Assembly (NCBI RefSeq): GCF_020521555.1
Contig: NZ_BPWA01000001.1
Location: 1,674,001 to 1,738,000 of the forward strand
Origin: Rodentibacter sp. JRC1
GTDB lineage: Bacteria; Pseudomonadota; Gammaproteobacteria; Enterobacterales; Pasteurellaceae
Reading direction: 5' to 3'
DNA length: 64,000 bases
In this document: positions 14,038-60,590 of the stretch, one piece after another
How the letters are laid out: the number at the start of each line of letters is the position of its first letter
How positions within the stretch are numbered: the stretch's first letter is position 1
Notes under the pieces: generated by a model
What the model was told of the DNA's origin: nothing
Seen by the model: only the letters and a program-made list of their open reading frames with translations
Databases searched by the model: none
Position numbers and translations under genes: made by a program

Positions 14038-14104
14038 GGGCGGGTACAGGACCCGCCCCTACCAACATAATCAAATTTTTTTGTGCAACTGCTGCATAAT
14101 ATCG
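14038..14104. repeat. Partial copy of the small inverted-repeat element (copy C)
   Basis: A hairpin GGGCGGGT-acagg-ACCCGCCC (14038-14058) is followed at 14078-14104 by a terminal repeat ending GCTGCATAATATCG, like the right ends of the elements near 53.6, 57.8 and 60.6 kb. No matching left end is visible, so this is a truncated copy. It lies just after lpxM. Confidence 0.55.
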
Positions 14105-14144
14105 TAAAATTCATTGTATTTTATGACCGCACTTTTTCTTCGAA

Positions 14145-16232: not shown

Positions 16233-17147
16233 ATGGATGGATTAACCATTGCTACATTAGTTTTTCTTGTGCTTGTCGTGGTGATTTTGTTTTCAACGGT
16301 TAAAACCGTGCCACAAGGTTATAACTGGACGATCGAACGCTTCGGGCGTTATACCCGCACTTTAATGCCGGGGTTGAATTTGGTTGTGCCGTTTGTGGAT
16401 CGTGTCGGTCGTAAAATCAATATGATGGAACAAGTGTTAGATATTCCCTCACAAGAGGTGATTTCTAAAGATAATGCTAACGTATCCATTGATGCGGTGT
16501 GTTTCGTGCAAGTGATTGATGCACGCCGTGCCGCTTATGAAGTAAACCATCTTGAGCAAGCCATCATCAATTTGACAATGACAAATATTCGTACTGTGCT
16601 AGGTTCGATGGAGTTGGACGAAATGCTTTCGCAACGTGATGCGATTAATGGTCGCTTACTTGCGATTGTAGATGAGGCAACCAACCCTTGGGGGATTAAA
16701 GTGACCCGAATTGAAATTCGTGATGTGCGCCCGCCACGTGAATTAATTGATTCGATGAACGCACAAATGAAAGCGGAACGTAACAAACGTGCGGAAGTGT
16801 TGGAAGCAGAAGGGGTTCGCCAAGCCGAAATTTTGCGTGCCGAAGGGGAAAAACAAGCACGTATTTTGAAAGCGGAAGGGGAGCGTCAGGAAGCCTTTTT
16901 ACAAGCGGAAGCGCGTGAGCGTGCGGCCGAAGCGGAGGCGAAAGCAACGCAAATGGTATCCGAAGCCATTGCAACCGGTGATACGAAAGCAATCAATTAC
17001 TTCATTGCACAAAAATATACGGAAGCCCTCAAGGAAATCGGTGGTGCGCAAAATAGTAAAGTCGTACTTATGCCGTTAGAAGCGGGGAATTTGATCGGTT
17101 CTGTGGCAGGAATTGCGGAATTATTGAAAGGCGATAAAAAAGCCTAA
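16233..17147 (+). CDS. qmcA: SPFH/stomatin-like membrane protein QmcA
   Basis: 304 residues. One N-terminal membrane anchor (about 5-22) is followed by the SPFH domain ([23 protein letters not shown] onward) and an Ala/Glu/Arg-rich coiled coil (about 175-250). These proteins form detergent-resistant oligomers linked to quality control by FtsH. The gene is followed by an NfeD partner, the usual pairing of stomatins with NfeD. Start codon preceded by AGAGGGAA. Confidence 0.9.
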
Positions 17148-17164
17148 TCGTTATTTCATTTTTT

Positions 17165-17204
17165 TAGTGCGGTTGAAATTTATGGATTTTATGACCGCAC
17201 TTTT
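17165..17204 (+). terminator. Inverted uptake-sequence pair between qmcA and nfeD
   Basis: AGTGCGGT and ACCGCACT, 20 bases apart, can form an 8-base stem followed by TTTT. It lies between two probably co-transcribed genes, so at most it attenuates. Confidence 0.45.
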
Positions 17205-17222
17205 CTCTATAAGGGAGGCTAT

Positions 17223-17678
17223 ATGGCGGAATGGTTGACTGCGTGGACATTATGGCATTGGCTGGTGTTGGGATTTGTCTTGCTTATCGCTGAAATAATC
17301 GTGCCGGGTGTATTTTTACTGTGGTGGGGACTTGCGGCATTAGTTACCGCACTACTTCAATTTATTTTCCCGACTTTTTCGTTCGCAGGGCTTGTCATTT
17401 TTTATGCCGTCTTAGCCGGTATGCTATCGGTGATTTGGTGGAAGTATCAACATACTAAAGATCACCGGGATCAATCTCATAGCACATTAAATCAGCGTGA
17501 TCACGCTATGCTTGATAAACAAGGCACAGTACAAGAAATTGCGGCAAACGGCATTGGGCGCGGTGCTTTTGGTGATACGACTTGGCGTATTCAAGGGGAG
17601 CATCTTGCGGTGAATGATCTCGTCAAAGTTGTTCGGGTAGACGGTATAACGCTTATTGTGAAAAAGGTAACAAAATGA
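17223..17678 (+). CDS. NfeD-like membrane protein (YbbJ type)
   Basis: 151 residues: two to three N-terminal membrane segments (about 10-75), then a soluble OB-fold domain with LDKQGTVQEIAANGIGRGAF and a late VVRVDGITLIVKK strand. NfeD proteins act with stomatin/SPFH partners, here QmcA directly upstream. AAGGGAGG gives a strong ribosome site. The stop overlaps the next start (ATGA). Confidence 0.85.
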   Translation: MAEWLTAWTLWHWLVLGFVLLIAEIIVPGVFLLWWGLAALVTALLQFIFPTFSFAGLVIFYAVLAGMLSVIWWKYQHTKDHRDQSHSTLNQRDHAMLDKQGTVQEIAANGIGRGAFGDTTWRIQGEHLAVNDLVKVVRVDGITLIVKKVTK

Positions 17679-49921: not shown

Positions 49922-51091
49922 TTAATGGGAAACGGATGTTGTTTTTTTCAAACAATAATATCCCACAATTGCCGAAATCGTAGAGCCAAGCAATATCCCC
50001 AAACGTGAAAGCGCATTCACACTTTCGCCTGCGTTCGCATCAAAAGCGAGACTTGCCAAAAACATCGACATAGTAAAACCGATACCGCATAAAATTGCCA
50101 CTGCAAAAATTTGTTTAAAATTAATTCCCTCGGGCAGTTTTGCAATGCCTAATTTTACCGAAAGGTAGCTAAAACCGAATACGCCGATTGGTTTACCAAT
50201 AATCAAACCTAGGGCAATGGCAAGCAATAATGGGGAAGATAACATTGAAACATCAATCCCTTCAAAACTCACTCCGGCGTTGGCAAAGGCAAATAGCGGC
50301 AAAATGAGGAATGACGTCCAAGGCATTAGAAGATGTTCAAATTCTTCTAACGGTTTTTCACCTTTTTCGCCTTTCAATGGAATGCAGAAACCGATAATCA
50401 CCCCCGCAAGCGTGGCGTGTACGCCGGATTTTAATACGGATGCCCATAAAATTGCGCCCACTACCATATAGGCACAAAGAGCGGTGACTTTAAAGCGATT
50501 TAATGTGATGAGTAAGACGATGGCAATTCCTGCAAAAATAAGTGCTTGAATGCTTAACCCGTGAGAGAAAAATAAGGCAATGACGACAATTGCACCTAAG
50601 TCATCGATAATCGCTAGAGCGAGTAAAAAGATTTTTAATGGCAAGGGTACTTGTTTACTCAGAAGAGCCATAATGCCGAGAGCAAAAGCAATATCCGTTG
50701 CCATTGGGATCGCCCAGCCGTTAGCGAAAGCAGGTTCTTGGCGTGCGATAAACACATAAACTAAAGCCGGAATCACCATACCACCTATTGCTGCAATGGC
50801 AGGGAAAACGGCCTGTTGATAACTGGAAAGAGAGCCTTCTAACAGTTCTCGCTTTACTTCCAATCCCACTAAAACGAAAAATACCGCCATAAAGCCGTCA
50901 TTAATCCAATGAATCAGTGTTTTATCAATAGAAAAGCTACCGATTTTAATACTCACGGGTAAATTTAAGAAACCATTGTAAGCCCCATTTAAAGGGGAAT
51001 TGGCAAAAAACATTGCGATTAATGCAGAGCAAAGTAATAAGATGCCACCGGCAGATTCAAGTTTAAAAAATCGCTGTATAAGTTGTAACAC
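49922..51091 (-). CDS. nhaA: Na+/H+ antiporter NhaA
   Basis: 389 residues and about twelve membrane helices. [18 protein letters not shown], the conserved [16 protein letters not shown] and [18 protein letters not shown] with the paired Asp residues are the ion-binding core. It exports Na+ in exchange for protons. It is divergent from brnQ. Confidence 0.97.
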
Positions 51092-51233
51092 AAAATCTCT
51101 CCAAAAAAGTTAAAAATAAATTAACAAAAAATCAACGAAGCTCGGATATTATCATAAATTTTCGCTATATATGGAAAATACCGCTAGAAAAGTGCGGTCA
51201 TTTCCTACATATTTTTTGTGGTTAAGCCATCAA

Positions 51234-51249
51234 TGTGATTTTGCTCACA
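51234..51249 (+). promoter_or_regulatory. CRP site upstream of brnQ
   Basis: TGTGATTTTGCTCACA is the perfect TGTGA-N6-TCACA pattern, 78 bases before the brnQ start and in the divergent nhaA-brnQ region. Confidence 0.75.
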
Positions 51250-51326
51250 TTTTTGCATCTAAAGAGTAGGGTTCTATTCATCTTTATAGTAAACTTGTCG
51301 CCCCTTTTTATTTACTGAGAAGATAT

Positions 51327-52625
51327 ATGTTTAGTCGTAAAGATATTATTGTTTTGGGGATGATGATTTTCGCGCTCTTTTTAGGGGCCGGAAATATTAT
51401 TTTCCCGCCGATGGAAGGATTTTCCGCCGGTCATCATTGGGCGAGTGCCTCTTTAGGTTTTGTTTTAACCGGTGTATTAATGCCATTTATCACTTTAGTT
51501 GTGGTGGCGGTACTTGGACGCGGTGAAGAACTTATGCGCGATTTACCGAAATGGGCGGAAGTTATCTTTTTAACCACCTTATATTTGGTGATCGGCTCTT
51601 TATTTGCAATGCCACGAGTGACGAATGTGGCTTATGAAATGGCTTGGTTACCCTTAAGCATTATGGAAGATAGTAGTAGCGCACACTTTATCTTTTCACT
51701 TATATTTAATCTTATCGGTATGTTATTTATGCTGCGTCCGAACACGATTATTTCTAGCGTCGGCAAATTTATGACGCCTGCTCTACTCGTGTTATTAGTT
51801 GTGGTTGCAGTGAATGTGTTGATTTCTCCTCTTTCGGAAATTGTTGAACCGAGCAATGCCTATGTGACGAATTCACCGATTACGGCCGGTTTAATCAGCG
51901 GTTATCAAACGATGGACGTACTCGCAGCGATTGCTTTCGGCGGTATTGTGGCACGTGCATTGGCAGTGAAAAATGTTTTTGCCGCACAAAAAGTAATGAA
52001 ATACACCATTTCCGCCGGTTTTATTTCTGTGTTTTTACTTGCGGCATTGTATTTCTCATTATTTTATTTAGGTGCAACGGGGGCAAAAGTTGCAGAAGGT
52101 GCGACCAATGGCGGACAAATTTTTTCTCATTATGTGAACGCATTATTTGGAATTGGCGGCACTTGGATTATGTCGGGTATTATTATTTTGGCAAATCTTA
52201 CGACACTTGTAGGCGTAACCAGCGCGTGTGCAGATTATTTCTCTAAATTCCATACCCGTTTGTCTTATCCGTTTTGGGTGGTACTTTTTACCATTTTAAC
52301 TACTGTCATCGCACAAACAGGTCTAACGGAATTATTACGAATTACTATTCCGGCATTATTGTTAATTTACCCTGTTGCGATTATGTTGGTGTTTTTACAA
52401 ATTATCCGTAGTAAATTGCCGAATATTAAATTTAGCTATTATTTTACTTTACTTGTTACCGTCTGTTTCAGTGCCTGTGATAGTTTGAAAAATATGAATT
52501 TATTACCGCAATCAATTGAAAATCTGTTGGCTCATTTACCGCTTTATTCTTCCGGTATGGCGTGGTTGATTCCATCATTTGTTGTACTTGGTTTATCTTT
52601 CCTGTTGGGAAGAAAGTCGGCGTAA
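51327..52625 (+). CDS. brnQ: Branched-chain amino acid:Na+ symporter BrnQ
   Basis: 432 residues with about twelve membrane segments. The opening FSRKDIIVLGMMIFALFLGAGNIIFPP with LGAGNIIFPP is diagnostic of the LIVCS family, and GYQTMDVLAAIAFGGIV is conserved. It imports leucine, isoleucine and valine. A CRP site upstream suggests induction on carbon limitation. Confidence 0.94.
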   Translation: MFSRKDIIVLGMMIFALFLGAGNIIFPPMEGFSAGHHWASASLGFVLTGVLMPFITLVVVAVLGRGEELMRDLPKWAEVIFLTTLYLVIGSLFAMPRVTNVAYEMAWLPLSIMEDSSSAHFIFSLIFNLIGMLFMLRPNTIISSVGKFMTPALLVLLVVVAVNVLISPLSEIVEPSNAYVTNSPITAGLISGYQTMDVLAAIAFGGIVARALAVKNVFAAQKVMKYTISAGFISVFLLAALYFSLFYLGATGAKVAEGATNGGQIFSHYVNALFGIGGTWIMSGIIILANLTTLVGVTSACADYFSKFHTRLSYPFWVVLFTILTTVIAQTGLTELLRITIPALLLIYPVAIMLVFLQIIRSKLPNIKFSYYFTLLVTVCFSACDSLKNMNLLPQSIENLLAHLPLYSSGMAWLIPSFVVLGLSFLLGRKSA

Positions 52626-52642
52626 TTCAATTTTTCATGATA

Positions 52643-52675
52643 AAAAATACCGAGTCCAAAATGCTCGGTATTTTT
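52643..52675. terminator. Terminator between brnQ and rlmB
   Basis: AAAAATACCGAG and CTCGGTATTTTT form a perfect 12-base stem with a 9-base loop. Confidence 0.88.
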
Positions 52676-52703
52676 ACAAAGTGCGGTCATATTTTGAAAT
52701 GTT

Positions 52704-53444
52704 TTATAAATCTAAACGCTGGCGAACGATTTCAAATAAACATACACCGGTTGCCACAGATACATTTAATGAGGAAACCGATCCCGCCATAGGAATACTG
52801 ATGAGTTGATCGCAATGTTCACGCGTTAAGCGGCGCATACCTTCACCCTCCGCCCCCATAACCAGCGCGATTGCACCCTTAAGTTTGGTGTTATAAATGG
52901 TTTCTGCGGCTTCACCTGCCGTACCGACTACCCAAATATTATGATTTTGTTGTAGCTCACGAAGAGTACGGGAAAGGTTTGTTACCCGAATGAGCGGAAC
53001 GGTTTCCGCTGCGCCGCAAGCGACTTTACGTGCGATAGAAGTGAGCTGTGCCGATTTATCTTTCGGAACGATAACCGCATCGACACCGGCGGCATCTGCG
53101 GTACGCAGGCAAGCGCCAAGATTATGAGGATCGGTCACGCCGTCAAGCACCAACAAAAGCGGATCTTGTTTATTGGTGAGAACGGTATCGAGATCATTTT
53201 CATTGAGTTCTTTTGCCGCCTGCACGCGAGCTATCACACCTTGGTGGACTTCGCCGTTCGCTTTTTTATCTAGAGTTTGGCGATTTACAAATTGTACACC
53301 GATGCCCATTGCGTAGAGTTCGTTTAATAAAGGTTGCAGACGTTTATCTTCACGGCCTTTTAGCACAAAGACTTCAATTAAACGTTCAGGTGTATGAGCT
53401 AAAATACTATTAACGGCGTGAATACCGTAAATCTGTTCGGACAT
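52704..53444 (-). CDS. rlmB: 23S rRNA Gm2251 2'-O-methyltransferase
   Basis: 246 residues: an N-terminal L7Ae-like substrate domain ([15 protein letters not shown]) and the SPOUT domain with [31 protein letters not shown] and [17 protein letters not shown], the knotted SAM site. It lies downstream of rnr on the same strand, as in E. coli, but a small mobile element now separates the two. Confidence 0.96.
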
Positions 53445-53549: not shown

Positions 53550-53641
53550 TTCGGTATTATGAATACTTGTACGAAATATCATAGATATTACCTCTCTTAA
53601 GAAATAAAATCCTCTTTGTACAACCGATACATAATGCCGAA
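53550..53641. mobile_element. Small inverted-repeat element (MITE-like), copy D, between rnr and rlmB
   Basis: A 92-base element with terminal inverted repeats of about 27 bases (53550-53576 and 53615-53641), ends CGGTATTATG and CATAATGCCG. If the ends are taken at CGG/CCG, AACTATTT and AATTATTT flank it, an 8-base target duplication with one change. The right duplication includes the rnr stop codon (53642-53644). No coding capacity, so it would need a transposase in trans. Confidence 0.7.
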
Positions 53642-55981
53642 TTATTTTTTTGATTTCTTAGAAACTTCTTTCTTTTTTACCGCACTTTTTCGTCTTTTAC
53701 CGATTTTTGGCGGTAATTCTTTAAATATTTTCTTCGCTTTTTCTTTAGCGGTTTTTCCTGTTCGGCGTGCTTTTCGTTCACTGCTCAATAGGGAAAAATC
53801 TATCATTTTTTGTTCTAAATGTACCGCTTCTACGCGAACACGCACTTTATCGCCCAAGCGATATTGCATACCGCTGTTTTCACCGATTAAACGTTGTTTT
53901 GCGGCATCGAACTGATAATAATCATTTTCCAACGTAGAAATATGTACTAATCCGTCAATGAAGAGTTCGTCCAAACGCACAAACAAACCGAAACCGGTAA
54001 CGGATGAAATTACGCCGTTAAATTCATTGCCTATATGATCCTGCATGTATTCGCATTTTAGCCAGTCAGCCGTTTCACGTGTAGCATCATCGGCGCGGCG
54101 TTCGGTCATTGAACAATGATCACCTAATAAATCCATTTCATCAAAAGAATAATGATAGCCGCCCGTTTCGGTGGTTTTGCGTTTTGAACCCTGTTTTTTA
54201 GCAAGCAAATATTTAATACCACGATGAAGTGTTAAATCGGGATAACGGCGAATCGGCGAAGTGAAATGCGCATATTCTTCCAATGCTAAACCGAAATGTC
54301 CGATATTATCGGCATTATACACGGCTTGACTAAGAGAACGGAGTAGCATCGTTTGAATTAACTCGTGATCAGGACGTTCTTTCACCTTCTCCAATAGGGT
54401 TGCGTAATCCTTAGTGAGCGGTTTTAAACCGCCTTCTAAGGCTAAACCGAATTCATTTAAAAATGTGCGGAATGAAGTGAGTTTTTCTTCACTTGGCGTA
54501 GCGTGAATACGATACAATGCCGGCTCATTGTTTTTTTGCATAAAATTTGCCGCCGCAATATTGGCAAGAATCATACATTCTTCAATGATTTTATGGGCGT
54601 CATTCCGAACCACCGGTTCAATCCGTTCAATACGTCCCATCGCATTAAAAATAAATTTGCTTTCAACGGTTTCAAAATCTATCGCACCACGCTGTTGACG
54701 GGCGGAAAGCAACGCTTGATATAAATCATAAAGCGCTTCCAAATGTGGAACAAGCAGGGCATAACGCTCCCGTAATTCGGTATCTCCCTCCAGCATTTTT
54801 GCTACCTTGGTATAGGTTAAACGTGCGTGAGAGTTCATTACCGCTTCATAAAAACGATAGTCGGTAAGTTTGCCCTTAGCGGAAATTTGCATTTCACATA
54901 CCATACATAGGCGATCTACTTGCGGATTAAGCGAACATAAGCCGTTAGATAAAATTTCCGGCAGCATTGGAACGACTCGGTTTGGAAAATAGACGGAATT
55001 ACCCCGATTATGGGCTTCAGCATCTAGAGCGGTGTGCAATCGTACATAATAGCTCACATCCGCAATCGCAACCCAAAGTTTCCAGCCTTTGTCCTGTTTT
55101 TCACAATATACGGCATCATCAAAATCGCGAGCATCTTCCCCGTCAATGGTAACGAGCGGTAGATTGCGTAAATCAATACGTCCTTTTTTCGCTTCTTCAG
55201 GTACTTCTTCCGTAAATTTTTTAACGTATTTTTCGACCGCACTTGGGAATTTATGGGGAATGTCGTGATTGTGCAAAGCGATTTCCACTTCCATTCCTTT
55301 CGCCATATTATCACCCAAAATTTCCGTGATAATCCCCACCGGTTGACTGAAATTGGAAGAACGCTCCTGCAATTCCACCACAACCACTTGTCCCATACGT
55401 GCGCCATTGCGGTGTTCGTTTGGGACTAAAATATCACGCCCAATGCGGCTATCATCCGGCACCACATAGCCGAAACCGTTTTCCAAGAAAAAACGTCCCA
55501 CAATTTGTTTTTTTCGGTTTTCCAGCACGCGAACAATGCGGACCTCACGCCGACCTCGGCGATCTAAACCGGCCCTTTGTACTAAAACGAAATCACCATG
55601 CATAACACGTTGCATTTGGTGGTTGGGAATAAATAAATCCTCTTTTTGTCCCTCCACCTGCAAGAATCCGTAACCTTCACGATGACCGATCACCGTACCT
55701 TTTATGAGATCTAATTTCTCCGGTAAGGCATAGCGTTTACGTTTTGTGAATACAAGTTGCCCGTCATTTTCCATTGCTCGCAAACGGCGGCGCATCGCTT
55801 CGATTTGCTCTTCATTATGGATAGAAAGTGCGGTCAAAATTTCTTCCCGATTCATCGGTGCATTATTTTCGCGAATGATATTTAAAATAAACTCACGGCT
55901 TGGAATGGGATTACCGTATTTTTTCAATTCCCGCTGATAATGGGGATCTTGATGAGATAAGGTTTTGGTTTTTTTTATCAT
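53642..55981 (-). CDS. rnr: Ribonuclease R
   Basis: 779 residues. An N-terminal helix-turn-helix and cold-shock domains precede the RNB catalytic core with [17 protein letters not shown] (Asp cluster); an S1 domain ([18 protein letters not shown]) and a lysine-rich tail ending KKSKK follow. It degrades structured RNA 3' to 5'. The ATG at 55981 is chosen; a GTG at 56020 would add 13 residues. A perfect hairpin lies at 56071-56101 upstream, and the stop codon lies inside the duplication of an inserted element. Confidence 0.95.
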
Positions 55982-56246: not shown

Positions 56247-57632
56247 ATGTACACATCTAATTTTTTAAATCTTATCTTAAATGTTGACAGTTATAAGGCA
56301 TCTCATTGGTTGCAATACCCACCTAATACGGAATATGTCTCTTATTATGTTGAGGCGCGTAGCGGAGAGTTTGATGTCGTTTTTTTTGGTTTACAAGCCT
56401 TTATCAAAGAGTATTTGTTAACTCCCGTTACCCAACAGGATATTGAAGAAGCGGAAATTGTTTTAAAACTACACGGGTTGCCGTTTAATCGTCTTGGTTG
56501 GCAGCGTTTAATTGAGAAATATCAAGGATTTTTACCGTTAAAAATAGAAGCTGTTCCTGAAGGGACGGTATTACCGGTAGGCAATGTGGTTTGCCAGATT
56601 GTTAACACCGATCCTGAATTCTTTTGGCTGACGGGTTATCTGGAAACCGCATTATTACGTGCAATTTGGTATCCCTCCACGGTTGCAAGTATTTCTTATT
56701 TCTGTAAACGGCAGATCAAGCAAGCACTTGAAAAATCTGCCGATAATTTAGATAACTTATTATTTAAATTGCATGATTTCGGCGCGAGAGGGGCATCTAG
56801 TTTAGAAACGGTTGCTTTAGGCGGTTTGGCTCATTTGGTTAATTTTATGGGAACGGACAGTGTTTCGGCATTAGTTGCAGCCCGCCGTTGGTACAACGTG
56901 GAGCAAATGCCGGCTTTTTCTATTCCAGCCGCAGAACATAGCACCATAACTTCATGGGGCAAAGAAAGAGAAATTGATGCCTATGAAAATATGTTAAATC
57001 AATTTGCCGGTAAAGATAAAATTTATGCGGTTGTTTCGGATAGTTATGATCTTTGGTATGCACTGGAGCATATTTGGGGGGAGCGGCTTAAAGATAAAAT
57101 AAAAGAACGAGGAGGAACTTTGGTTATACGCCCGGATAGCGGCGATCCTGCCGAAGTGATATGCCGCTCATTAGATATTTTAGCGCGTAAATTCGGTTCA
57201 ACGCTGAATAGCAAAGGTTATCGGGTGTTGCCTGATTATATACGACTTATTCAAGGAGACGGGATTAATTGTAATTCAATCGCGCCGATTCTAGAATCAA
57301 TAATCGCTCACGGATTTAGCGTTGATAATGTGAATTTCGGAATGGGTGGGGGATTATTACAACAGGTAAACCGAGACACGATGAGTTGGGCGATGAAAGC
57401 AAGCGCGGTGAATATCGCAGGTAAATGGCAAGATGTTTATAAAGATCCGATTACCGGTCAGGCGAAGCGTTCCAAAAAAGGGTTGCTCGCCTTGGTTAAA
57501 CGGCAAAATCAATGGCAAACGATCCCTCAACAAGCCTTAAATGGACAAGAGAATCAATTACGTACGGTGTTTTTTAACGGACAGTTATTAATTGACGATA
57601 CTTTAGAAACAATACGAATGAGAACGGGGTGA
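56247..57632 (+). CDS. nadV: Nicotinamide phosphoribosyltransferase NadV
   Basis: 461 residues of the NAMPT/PBEF family. It makes nicotinamide mononucleotide from nicotinamide and PRPP, giving independence from external V factor (NAD). Visible blocks are LNVDSYKASHWLQYP, LFKLHDFGARGASSLE, IPAAEHSTITSWGKERE with catalytic His231, TLVIRPDSGDP and FGMGGGLLQQVNRDTM. The ribosome site is weak. No uptake sequence is found between about 55.83 and 58.32 kb, and diverged direct repeats flank the gene, consistent with acquisition by transfer; neither point is proof. Confidence 0.94.
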   Translation: MYTSNFLNLILNVDSYKASHWLQYPPNTEYVSYYVEARSGEFDVVFFGLQAFIKEYLLTPVTQQDIEEAEIVLKLHGLPFNRLGWQRLIEKYQGFLPLKIEAVPEGTVLPVGNVVCQIVNTDPEFFWLTGYLETALLRAIWYPSTVASISYFCKRQIKQALEKSADNLDNLLFKLHDFGARGASSLETVALGGLAHLVNFMGTDSVSALVAARRWYNVEQMPAFSIPAAEHSTITSWGKEREIDAYENMLNQFAGKDKIYAVVSDSYDLWYALEHIWGERLKDKIKERGGTLVIRPDSGDPAEVICRSLDILARKFGSTLNSKGYRVLPDYIRLIQGDGINCNSIAPILESIIAHGFSVDNVNFGMGGGLLQQVNRDTMSWAMKASAVNIAGKWQDVYKDPITGQAKRSKKGLLALVKRQNQWQTIPQQALNGQENQLRTVFFNGQLLIDDTLETIRMRTG

Positions 57633-57646
57633 TAGGCTTTGTGGTG

Positions 57647-57872
57647 AAATAAACCGAAATACTCGCTATTATGTAGCACTTGCACAAATCTTTGTAGGGG
57701 CTGTTAGGCGAAGCCGTAACGCATCATTAACAAAGTTTAATGGTGCGTTACGCAAAGCTAACGCACCCTACCTCCCGATAAATATTGAATATAAAATTCT
57801 ATTTGGGCAACTGATACATAATACCGGAAATACTTCCCATCATTTTGTAAGACGGCGTATTTCGGTTTATTT
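57647..57872 (+). repeat. Inverted repeat after nadV, split by an element insertion
   Basis: AAATAAACCGAAATAC (57647-57662) and GTATTTCGGTTTATTT (57857-57872) are perfect 16-base inverted arms. Removing the element and one copy of its duplication would bring them to within 23 bases, a normal hairpin, probably the original nadV terminator. Confidence 0.75.
57664..57826. mobile_element. Small inverted-repeat element (MITE-like), copy A, after nadV
   Basis: 163 bases. Terminal inverted repeats at 57664-57689 and 57801-57826 match at 22 of 26 positions. A perfect 8-base duplication GAAATACT flanks it at 57656-57663 and 57827-57834. Inside are nested inverted arms at 57694-57723 and 57744-57771 around GTAGGG...GTAACGCA. 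It carries no gene. The 8-base duplication and terminal repeats identify a non-autonomous transposon, though the transposase family is unknown to me. Confidence 0.82.
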
Positions 57873-57895
57873 GGGGGACTAATTCACTTTAGCTT

Positions 57896-58221
57896 TTAGG
57901 GTTGGGTAAAATGCAATTCGCCCTGATTTTCTAAAAACGTCGGTTGAATTTCTACATAATCTTTATCTTTCGCTTTCAATATACTGCCTGTTTATTGAAT
58001 GTAATCTTTAAAGTGGGGCGTTTTGCGGTGATTTTCATAAGCCGCACCATTAGCGTAAATTTCAAAGAAAACCATTTATTGGGGCTTTCTTCTGTCGCCT
58101 CCGCATTCGCAATAACACTTTCTTCCCGTTTTAAGGATTATGTCATTTCCGCTGTAATAATGGCTTTAAATTTCGCATTATCTTCCGGTTTTACTTCCAC
58201 TGTAACAAGATTTGCCCGCAT
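57896..58221 (-). pseudogene. Broken antibiotic-biosynthesis/quinol monooxygenase (ABM domain)
   Basis: On the minus strand an ATG at 58221 opens MRANLVTVEVKPEDNAKFKA, which stops at TAA after 27 codons. After a frameshift, a second frame gives FEIYANGAAYENHRKTPHFK, a further TAA, and KDYVEIQPTFLENQGELHF before the final stop at 57896-57898. Together these cover an ABM (YgiN-like, about 100 residues) protein, a small cofactor-free oxygenase or quinol monooxygenase. Two stops plus a frameshift show it is dead. Confidence 0.75.
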
Positions 58222-58376
58222 TTCAGATTTTTGGTGTACCTTTTTATCTCCTAAAAATTGAGCCTTGAGCGTAATACGTTTTTTTTAAGGAAGACCAATA
58301 AAACCGTCAAAAAAATAACCGCACTTTTATTTTTAGTAGAATGCCAAGGTACGGTTAGTTTAGTTGAGATCTGTTA

Positions 58377-60350: not shown

Positions 60351-60570
60351 CGATAATGCAGTTGCATAAAGAAAATTTTATATTCAATATTTTGAGGTAG
60401 GGTGTGTTAGCCGTAGGCGTAACGCCCCTTTTTTGTCAATAAATTTCATTACGGTGCGTTACGGCTTCGCCTAACAGCACCCTTGTATATTAAAACTCTG
60501 ATAAACTCGCAACAAACAACACAACGTTATCCACAGCTACGATGATTTGTGCAAGTGCTACATAATACCA
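60351..60570. mobile_element. Small inverted-repeat element (MITE-like), copy B, inverted relative to copy A
   Basis: Reverse orientation to copy A. Shared stretches include AATTTTATATTCAATATTT, GAGGTAGGGTG, GCGTTACGGCTTCGCCTAAC and the right end GTGCAAGTGCTACATAATAC. It has about 60 extra bases before its right end and a degraded left end, and no clear target duplication. Confidence 0.65.
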
Positions 60571-60590
60571 AAAATTCACCGCACTTTTTA

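Follow-up and report, generated by a model that had tools for sequence, protein, structure and literature searches.

Introduction

MITEAba12 and the Correia elements are examples of the miniature transposable elements (MITEs) of bacteria. The main text of a review of such elements describes them as short, non-coding, palindromic and present in high copy number, with terminal inverted repeats (TIRs) and target-site duplications (TSDs) (PMC10969869), and the words Haemophilus, Pasteurella and IS1595 occur nowhere in that main text. The family described here shares all of these features; unlike bacterial MITEs such as QMITE, it has an insertion register tied to DNA-uptake signals (USS).

A second point of comparison is provided by the insertion sequences (ISs) of the IS1595 family (PF12762/PF12760, NCBIfam NF033547), to which the partner transposases that we scanned belong. 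ISApl4, a member of the IS1016 group from the same bacterial family, resembles the present family in its 8-bp, A/T-rich target duplications, and 16 of the 35 sites listed for it lie inside genes (PMC12561309), so USS targeting is not general to IS1595 elements. The partners differ from IS1595-family ISs in having two transposase genes, long cargo and USS-anchored targets. The ISs that target REP sequences (ISPsy8, ISPa11, ISPpu9/10, ISRm19/22) likewise land in an abundant palindromic extragenic repeat (PMC1525189), whereas the repeat in the present case is the one that controls natural transformation, the USS, and the partners are of the IS1595 family.

In the Pasteurellaceae, paired USS form intrinsic terminators and the extended USS motif has two A/T tracts, according to PMC1852404, and such USS-pair terminators make up part of the target sites analyzed here. 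Unlike them, the hairpin downstream of nadV from which this analysis starts contains no USS, and its role as a terminator is putative. Among open-licence full texts, we found no report of the USS as a landing site of mobile elements.

A Miniature Element Within the Hairpin Downstream of nadV

The window (the 64-kb stretch of DNA analyzed as a whole) carries nadV at 56247..57632 on the forward strand, encoding a nicotinamide phosphoribosyltransferase of 461 aa with PF04095 and PF18127 (NAMPT_N) above cut-off. A hairpin begins 14 bases past the end of the gene, and its left arm AAATAAACCGAAATAC (57647..57662, forward strand) and right arm GTATTTCGGTTTATTT (57857..57872, forward strand) are exact reverse complements lying 194 bases apart, just as the initial annotation had claimed. 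Perfect inverted 16-mers with starts 16–250 bases apart occur as only two pairs in the 64-kb window, and the nadV arms are one of them. Between the arms lies the 163-bp MITE proposed in the same annotation (57664..57826, forward strand), which is devoid of any ORF of 80 aa or more and whose 26-nt ends are inverted repeats with 85% complementarity: a left TIR at 57664..57689 (forward), whose motif is the TIR of IS1595-family transposons, pairs with a right TIR at 57801..57826 (reverse). Internal palindromes occupy 57715..57767 (57715–57730/57737–57752 and 57742–57750/57759–57767). The element is flanked by a perfect duplication of the 8-mer GAAATACT, at 57656..57663 and again at 57827..57834, for which the chance of an 8/8 match is about 2e-5 at this base composition. 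Like most targets of the family, the duplicated 8-mer runs from an A-tract to a T-tract, and it sits close to the tip of a long stem; removal of the element together with one duplicate leaves a hairpin with a 23-base loop, again as first described. An Rfam search of 57400–58100 at an E-value of 0.1 gave no matches, and neither did a search of plasmid DNA with the nadV insertion site.

The closest comparison for this locus comes from a related genome, G011, whose NadV orthologue is 95% identical and is the best match after the window's own (18 genomes with a match, 41 searched); the closest named match is that of P. canis at 87%. The empty site that the initial annotation had anticipated in relatives is found here, as a hairpin AAACCGAAAACAC..GTGAATTTCGGTTTA lacking the insert between nadV and shared downstream sequence, in which the target 8-mer occurs just once, as GAAAACAC. 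This supports an insertion of the element at nadV in the window's lineage. The alternative, that G011 deleted the element or that two unrelated intergenic sequences resemble each other by chance, draws on the poor alignment of the nadV intergenic regions outside the hairpin and on the modest extent of the empty-site match over it (40 of 52 bases, 77%, E 3e-5, with the remaining spacer aligning poorly), but we regard it as very improbable given that the arms and loop in G011 align with those of the window across the insertion join, with one target 8-mer and the same two neighbours. The presence of family copies elsewhere in G011 also speaks against it, and it means that G011 is not a family-free genome. 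Nine named nadV loci (P. canis, P. oralis and others) showed neither the TIR nor a matching hairpin and thus give no outgroup. Further past nadV, positions 57896–58284 match G011 (L051 3113–4064) at 85%, and beyond 58284 the window is without about 560 bases that G011 has. Separately, the NadV-like proteins of nine of the 14 other genomes searched in the genus (G001–G003, G005–G010) are only 35–36% identical to that of the window, and this suggests more than one origin of nadV in the genus.

The perfect duplication, the orthologous empty site and the many copies with the same ends bear out the earlier reading of transposition into the hairpin: the nadV insert is a genuine miniature transposon and its transposition is real. 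By itself, the insertion is a sound and fairly ordinary MITE event.

Its consequence for nadV is probably modest. RNA folding predicts a strong empty-site stem on both strands (−27.5 kcal/mol on the nadV strand and −26.6 kcal/mol on the other; the site has a stem score of 20). With the element in place, the predicted structure of the nadV strand reaches −84.8 kcal/mol, and the original arms still pair with each other at the foot of a single long stem. A single long hairpin (−84.1 kcal/mol) is likewise predicted for the 22-copy MITE consensus. As the MITE is a palindrome, its insertion has probably extended the nadV hairpin and not destroyed it. An altered nadV 3′ end is possible and a longer hairpin is equally likely; with the arms kept paired in the predicted filled RNA, an altered end is not the sole outcome to be considered. 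A terminator scan that allowed only loops of 3–8 bases did not match the nadV hairpin, whose tail falls short of a clean T-run.

The Element Belongs to a Family of About One Hundred Copies

A search of the window's genome (G000) with the TIR pattern at up to 3 mismatches returned 109 forward and 106 reverse matches, with none for the reversed control, which corresponds to a family of about a hundred copies. BLAST with the nadV copy found at least 40 places in this genome, itself included (the best 40 of 168 candidates), and identities among the matches listed were 74–84%, bar itself and one partial match at 89%. Fifteen genomes of the genus were searched for the TIR at up to 2 mismatches, and every one has it, G000 (91/85) and G011 (88/76) being the richest. 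For G000, 100 loci were fetched and 80 elements parsed, of which 77, at unrelated sites, were unique after three duplicates were removed (22 loci gave no parse); for G011, 27 elements were parsed from 30 loci (4 gave no parse). The lengths in both genomes cluster at 153–154 and 169–174 bp. A TSD with up to 2 mismatches flanks 47/77 copies in G000 and 19/27 in G011, and 42 of the 47 TSDs in G000 contain 6–8 A/T bases. Since at least 6 of the 27 insertions in G011 are orthologous to insertions in G000, the two sets are not fully independent.

Comparison of the two genomes gave eight reciprocal-site rows, comprising four clean empty sites, three matches of an element to another copy (L210) and one ambiguous case (L103 vs. 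L022). All four of the clean filled/empty sites have a USS, and three of them are empty in the window: a USS-pair site at 17034..17317 (reverse strand, 91% identity), filled in G011 at L105, and USS sites at 51066..51358 (forward, 83%) and 52557..52847 (forward, 89%), filled at L115 and L095. The presence of the USS in these empty sites means that it precedes insertion. With some insertions shared by the two genomes and others present in just one of them, the family was mobile both before and after the split of G000 and G011. The window holds three other TIR matches, all on the reverse strand and none more than 40 bases from a USS core: those of two degraded copies at 14080..14104 (USS core starting at 14126) and 53615..53639 (core starting at 53679), and that of a diverged copy at 60546..60570 (core starting at 60578, 7 bases past the TIR as drawn).

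Large Transposons of the IS1595 Family Share the TIR

The same TIR of about 25 bp bounds transposons with IS1595-family transposases in Pasteurellaceae other than G000 and G011, and at the three loci scanned these TIR-bounded transposons carry PF12762/PF12760 transposases. PF12762 scored above cut-off in 14 of the 25 genomes searched, and in neither G000 nor G011, both of which are among the 25. A transposase query at an E-value of 1e-20 matched 58 of 140 Pasteurellaceae genomes, again with no match in G000 or G011. We thus set aside the idea of a matching transposase still resident in G000, for which the same searches that succeed in other genomes gave 0 matches. Transposase matches in plasmids amounted to 308 records, all below 60% identity. 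On an IMG/VR contig (L313 5408–6801), the TIR and an IS1595-type transposase have neighbouring genes that resemble those of Mu on visual inspection, a phage-borne copy; the 108 bases read upstream of its TIR contain no USS.

The transposases are often arranged as minus/plus pairs. Forty loci with such pairs were fetched, of which 32 were parsed as elements (within L273–L310) and 8 were not. The 32 transposons span 6.4 to 11.6 kb and are flanked by 8-bp duplications, perfect in 27, with one mismatch in 1 and with three or four mismatches in 4. In every one of the 32, transposase matches (some of them broken) lie near either end, and at least one transposase per element is only about 40–47% identical to the reference copy. 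Among the shared small proteins, one cluster of about 144 aa accounts for 55 ORFs in the 32 elements, a cluster of about 110 aa is present in 30/32 (two scanned members look like Cro/C1-type HTH regulators), and a cluster of about 170 aa in 11/32. One element protein of about 140 aa has 80 relatives in the protein collection, and those named by organism come from genera of the Pasteurellaceae. Restriction- or methylase-type Pfam families occur in at least 22 of the 32 transposons, from a protein-by-protein scan that covered 40 of the 79 ORFs in the cargo with a length of at least 200 aa; other cargo includes YadA-type adhesin domains in three elements and a reverse transcriptase in one, and several gave no match. 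These elements of 6–12 kb, with two transposases and swappable cargo, could form a transposon group of their own.

Only the TIR is common to the ends of the MITE and of the transposons, as judged by eye over 90 bases in 7 of the 32, and in those same stretches the internal sequence of the MITE has no counterpart. What we propose to connect the MITEs and the transposons, given their common ends, is a shared mobilization and not descent by internal deletion.

Insertions Are Positioned Relative to DNA-Uptake Signals

The USS AAGTGCGGT lies within 40 bp of 46/77 copies in G000 and 22/27 copies in G011, compared with 14.1% of 5374 AT-rich intergenic control positions taken from 30 stretches of G000 in which ORFs were masked at 100 aa. 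Sites that span a USS inverted pair number 13/77 in G000 and 8/27 in G011 vs. 0.26% of the controls. No USS is present within 40 bp of the remaining 31/77 and 5/27 copies. The nadV copy belongs to this USS-less minority of the family; it has no USS at a preferred offset, the nearest exact USS core being at 58318. In G000 we also observed a tandem array of at least six near-identical USS inverted pairs with a spacing of 132 bases (G000:C1:2294621–2295320).

When d is the number of bases by which the duplication starts beyond the USS core, the 109 USS–element pairs divide into 24 at d = 1, 31 at 9–12, 10 at 19–20, 12 at −20 and 32 elsewhere, and the register is resolved to a single base: d = 1 has 24 insertions, while its neighbours d = 0 and d = 2 have 1 and 2. 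Counted per element, 38/77 copies in G000 and 14/27 in G011 have a USS at a preferred offset. Judging from examples, we infer that many of the −20 and +20 offsets are the same events, namely insertion just outside a short-loop USS hairpin.

It is important to consider whether a generic preference for A/T-rich 8-mers could produce this pattern, the USS being nearby on account of its A/T tracts and terminators being safe sites for survival. Such a preference is in keeping with the A/T-rich TSDs noted above and with the A/T-rich, often intragenic target 8-mers of ISApl4. To some degree it is also visible in our data: an 8-mer target model built from 35 sites that lie outside d = 0–3, with expectations from 30 intergenic USS, itself favours the USS A/T tracts, so the association is partly plain sequence preference. 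As a full account, however, we consider it unlikely. Relative to intergenic controls matched by 8-mer (one mismatch allowed), 31/47 copies were observed near a USS where 8.95 were expected (p about 3e-12). The model odds are 7.95 for d = 0 (1 insertion), 6.48 for d = 1 (24 insertions), about 3.5 for d = 11–12 and 1.04 for d = −20 (12 insertions); that they misrank d = 0 relative to d = 1 and miss d = −20 means that something besides A/T content determines the register, and a generic preference predicts neither the d = 1 register nor the −20/+20 peaks. Selection against other sites could sharpen the USS pattern.

Similar offsets are seen in the large transposons of other species, some of which have the Apl dialect of the USS, and this also argues against a generic preference. 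The flanks of these transposons were searched for three exact forms: the Hin core and the Apl core, both as given in PMC1626085, with the latter shortened to CAAGCGGT, and a third form, AAGAGCGGT, which was chosen after the flanks had been seen and is not an established USS. One of the three is present at 22 of the 32 transposon sites, at offsets of 1, 8–12, 20 and 21, and all three are missing from the other 10. One site, L292, has the shorter AAGCGGT on both sides. The third form is one base off the Hin USS and is enriched about 3.6- to 4.5-fold over the reversed control in four of five genomes and 2.2-fold in the fifth; its count in G000 is 135 vs. 37 for the control, and among the insertion sites it was noted in the flanks of L276, L278, L303 and L308.

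A second alternative holds that the target is a DNA or RNA hairpin (a terminator or a cruciform), of which USS pairs are merely the commonest. The nadV site, with its stem score of 20, is of this kind, and four transposon sites (L280, L288, L301 and L302) also lie within inverted repeats while lacking any exact USS form; more broadly, a stem score of 12 or above is found at 22/32 large transposon sites vs. 5.7% of 1500 AT-rich intergenic controls. We nevertheless find this reading rather unlikely, if somewhat less so than the generic A/T preference. At clean MITE sites without a USS, strong spanning hairpins occur in 2/16 cases in G000 and 0/2 in G011 vs. 4.5% of no-USS controls, and with only those 2 of the 16 G000 sites the notion that MITEs generally choose hairpins was rejected. 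In addition, a single exact USS without an inverted partner within 40 bp is found at 22 of the 46 USS-near sites in G000 and 12 of the 22 in G011, where a degenerate partner is possible.

The preference of both the MITEs and the transposons for USS is thus a statistical and positional association, accompanied by USS-bearing empty sites.

Discussion

The explanation that we favour, and hold to be probable as a whole, is that the MITE is mobilized in trans by an IS1595-family transposase and that the family integrates preferentially at fixed distances from USS. The MITE would be non-autonomous, with the transposase acting in trans on its ends of about 25 bp and making the 8-bp duplication. The ends, the duplication and the empty site are seen directly in the DNA, and as to which transposase moved the element, we infer that the likely autonomous partners, not found in G000, are the 6–12 kb Pasteurellaceae transposons, which have a pair of IS1595-family transposase genes and a cargo that varies and often includes restriction or methylase genes. 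By statistical and positional association, the preferred targets are A/T tracts at a fixed distance from the USS core, with the duplication starting 1, about 9–12 or about 20 bases beyond it, and some of the insertions fall within or right next to inverted USS pairs like those reported to act as terminators. The likely cause of the preference is that the transposition complex selects its target by the USS core, by the adjoining A/T tracts or by both. At nadV, the element would have used a hairpin that lacks the USS and presents a similar A-tract/T-tract target.

A transposon lineage whose landing sites are associated with, and anchored on, DNA-uptake signals is unexpected. Work on USS has dealt with their part in the recognition of DNA for transformation and in termination. 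A broader picture, which we offer tentatively and consider somewhat doubtful, is that an IS1595-type lineage of the Pasteurellaceae, made up of the two-transposase transposons and of MITEs that live on them as parasites, may read the USS of its host in any dialect, land within about 20 bp of an intact one, thereby tag itself for uptake and travel by natural transformation, with its restriction cargo shaping which incoming DNA survives. If mobile elements do use USS as landing sites, this would constitute a sequence-defined integration rule that ties transposition to natural competence, and would point to a way in which restriction-modification loci might pass between these bacteria. Whether uptake signals spread the genes of selfish elements becomes a testable question.
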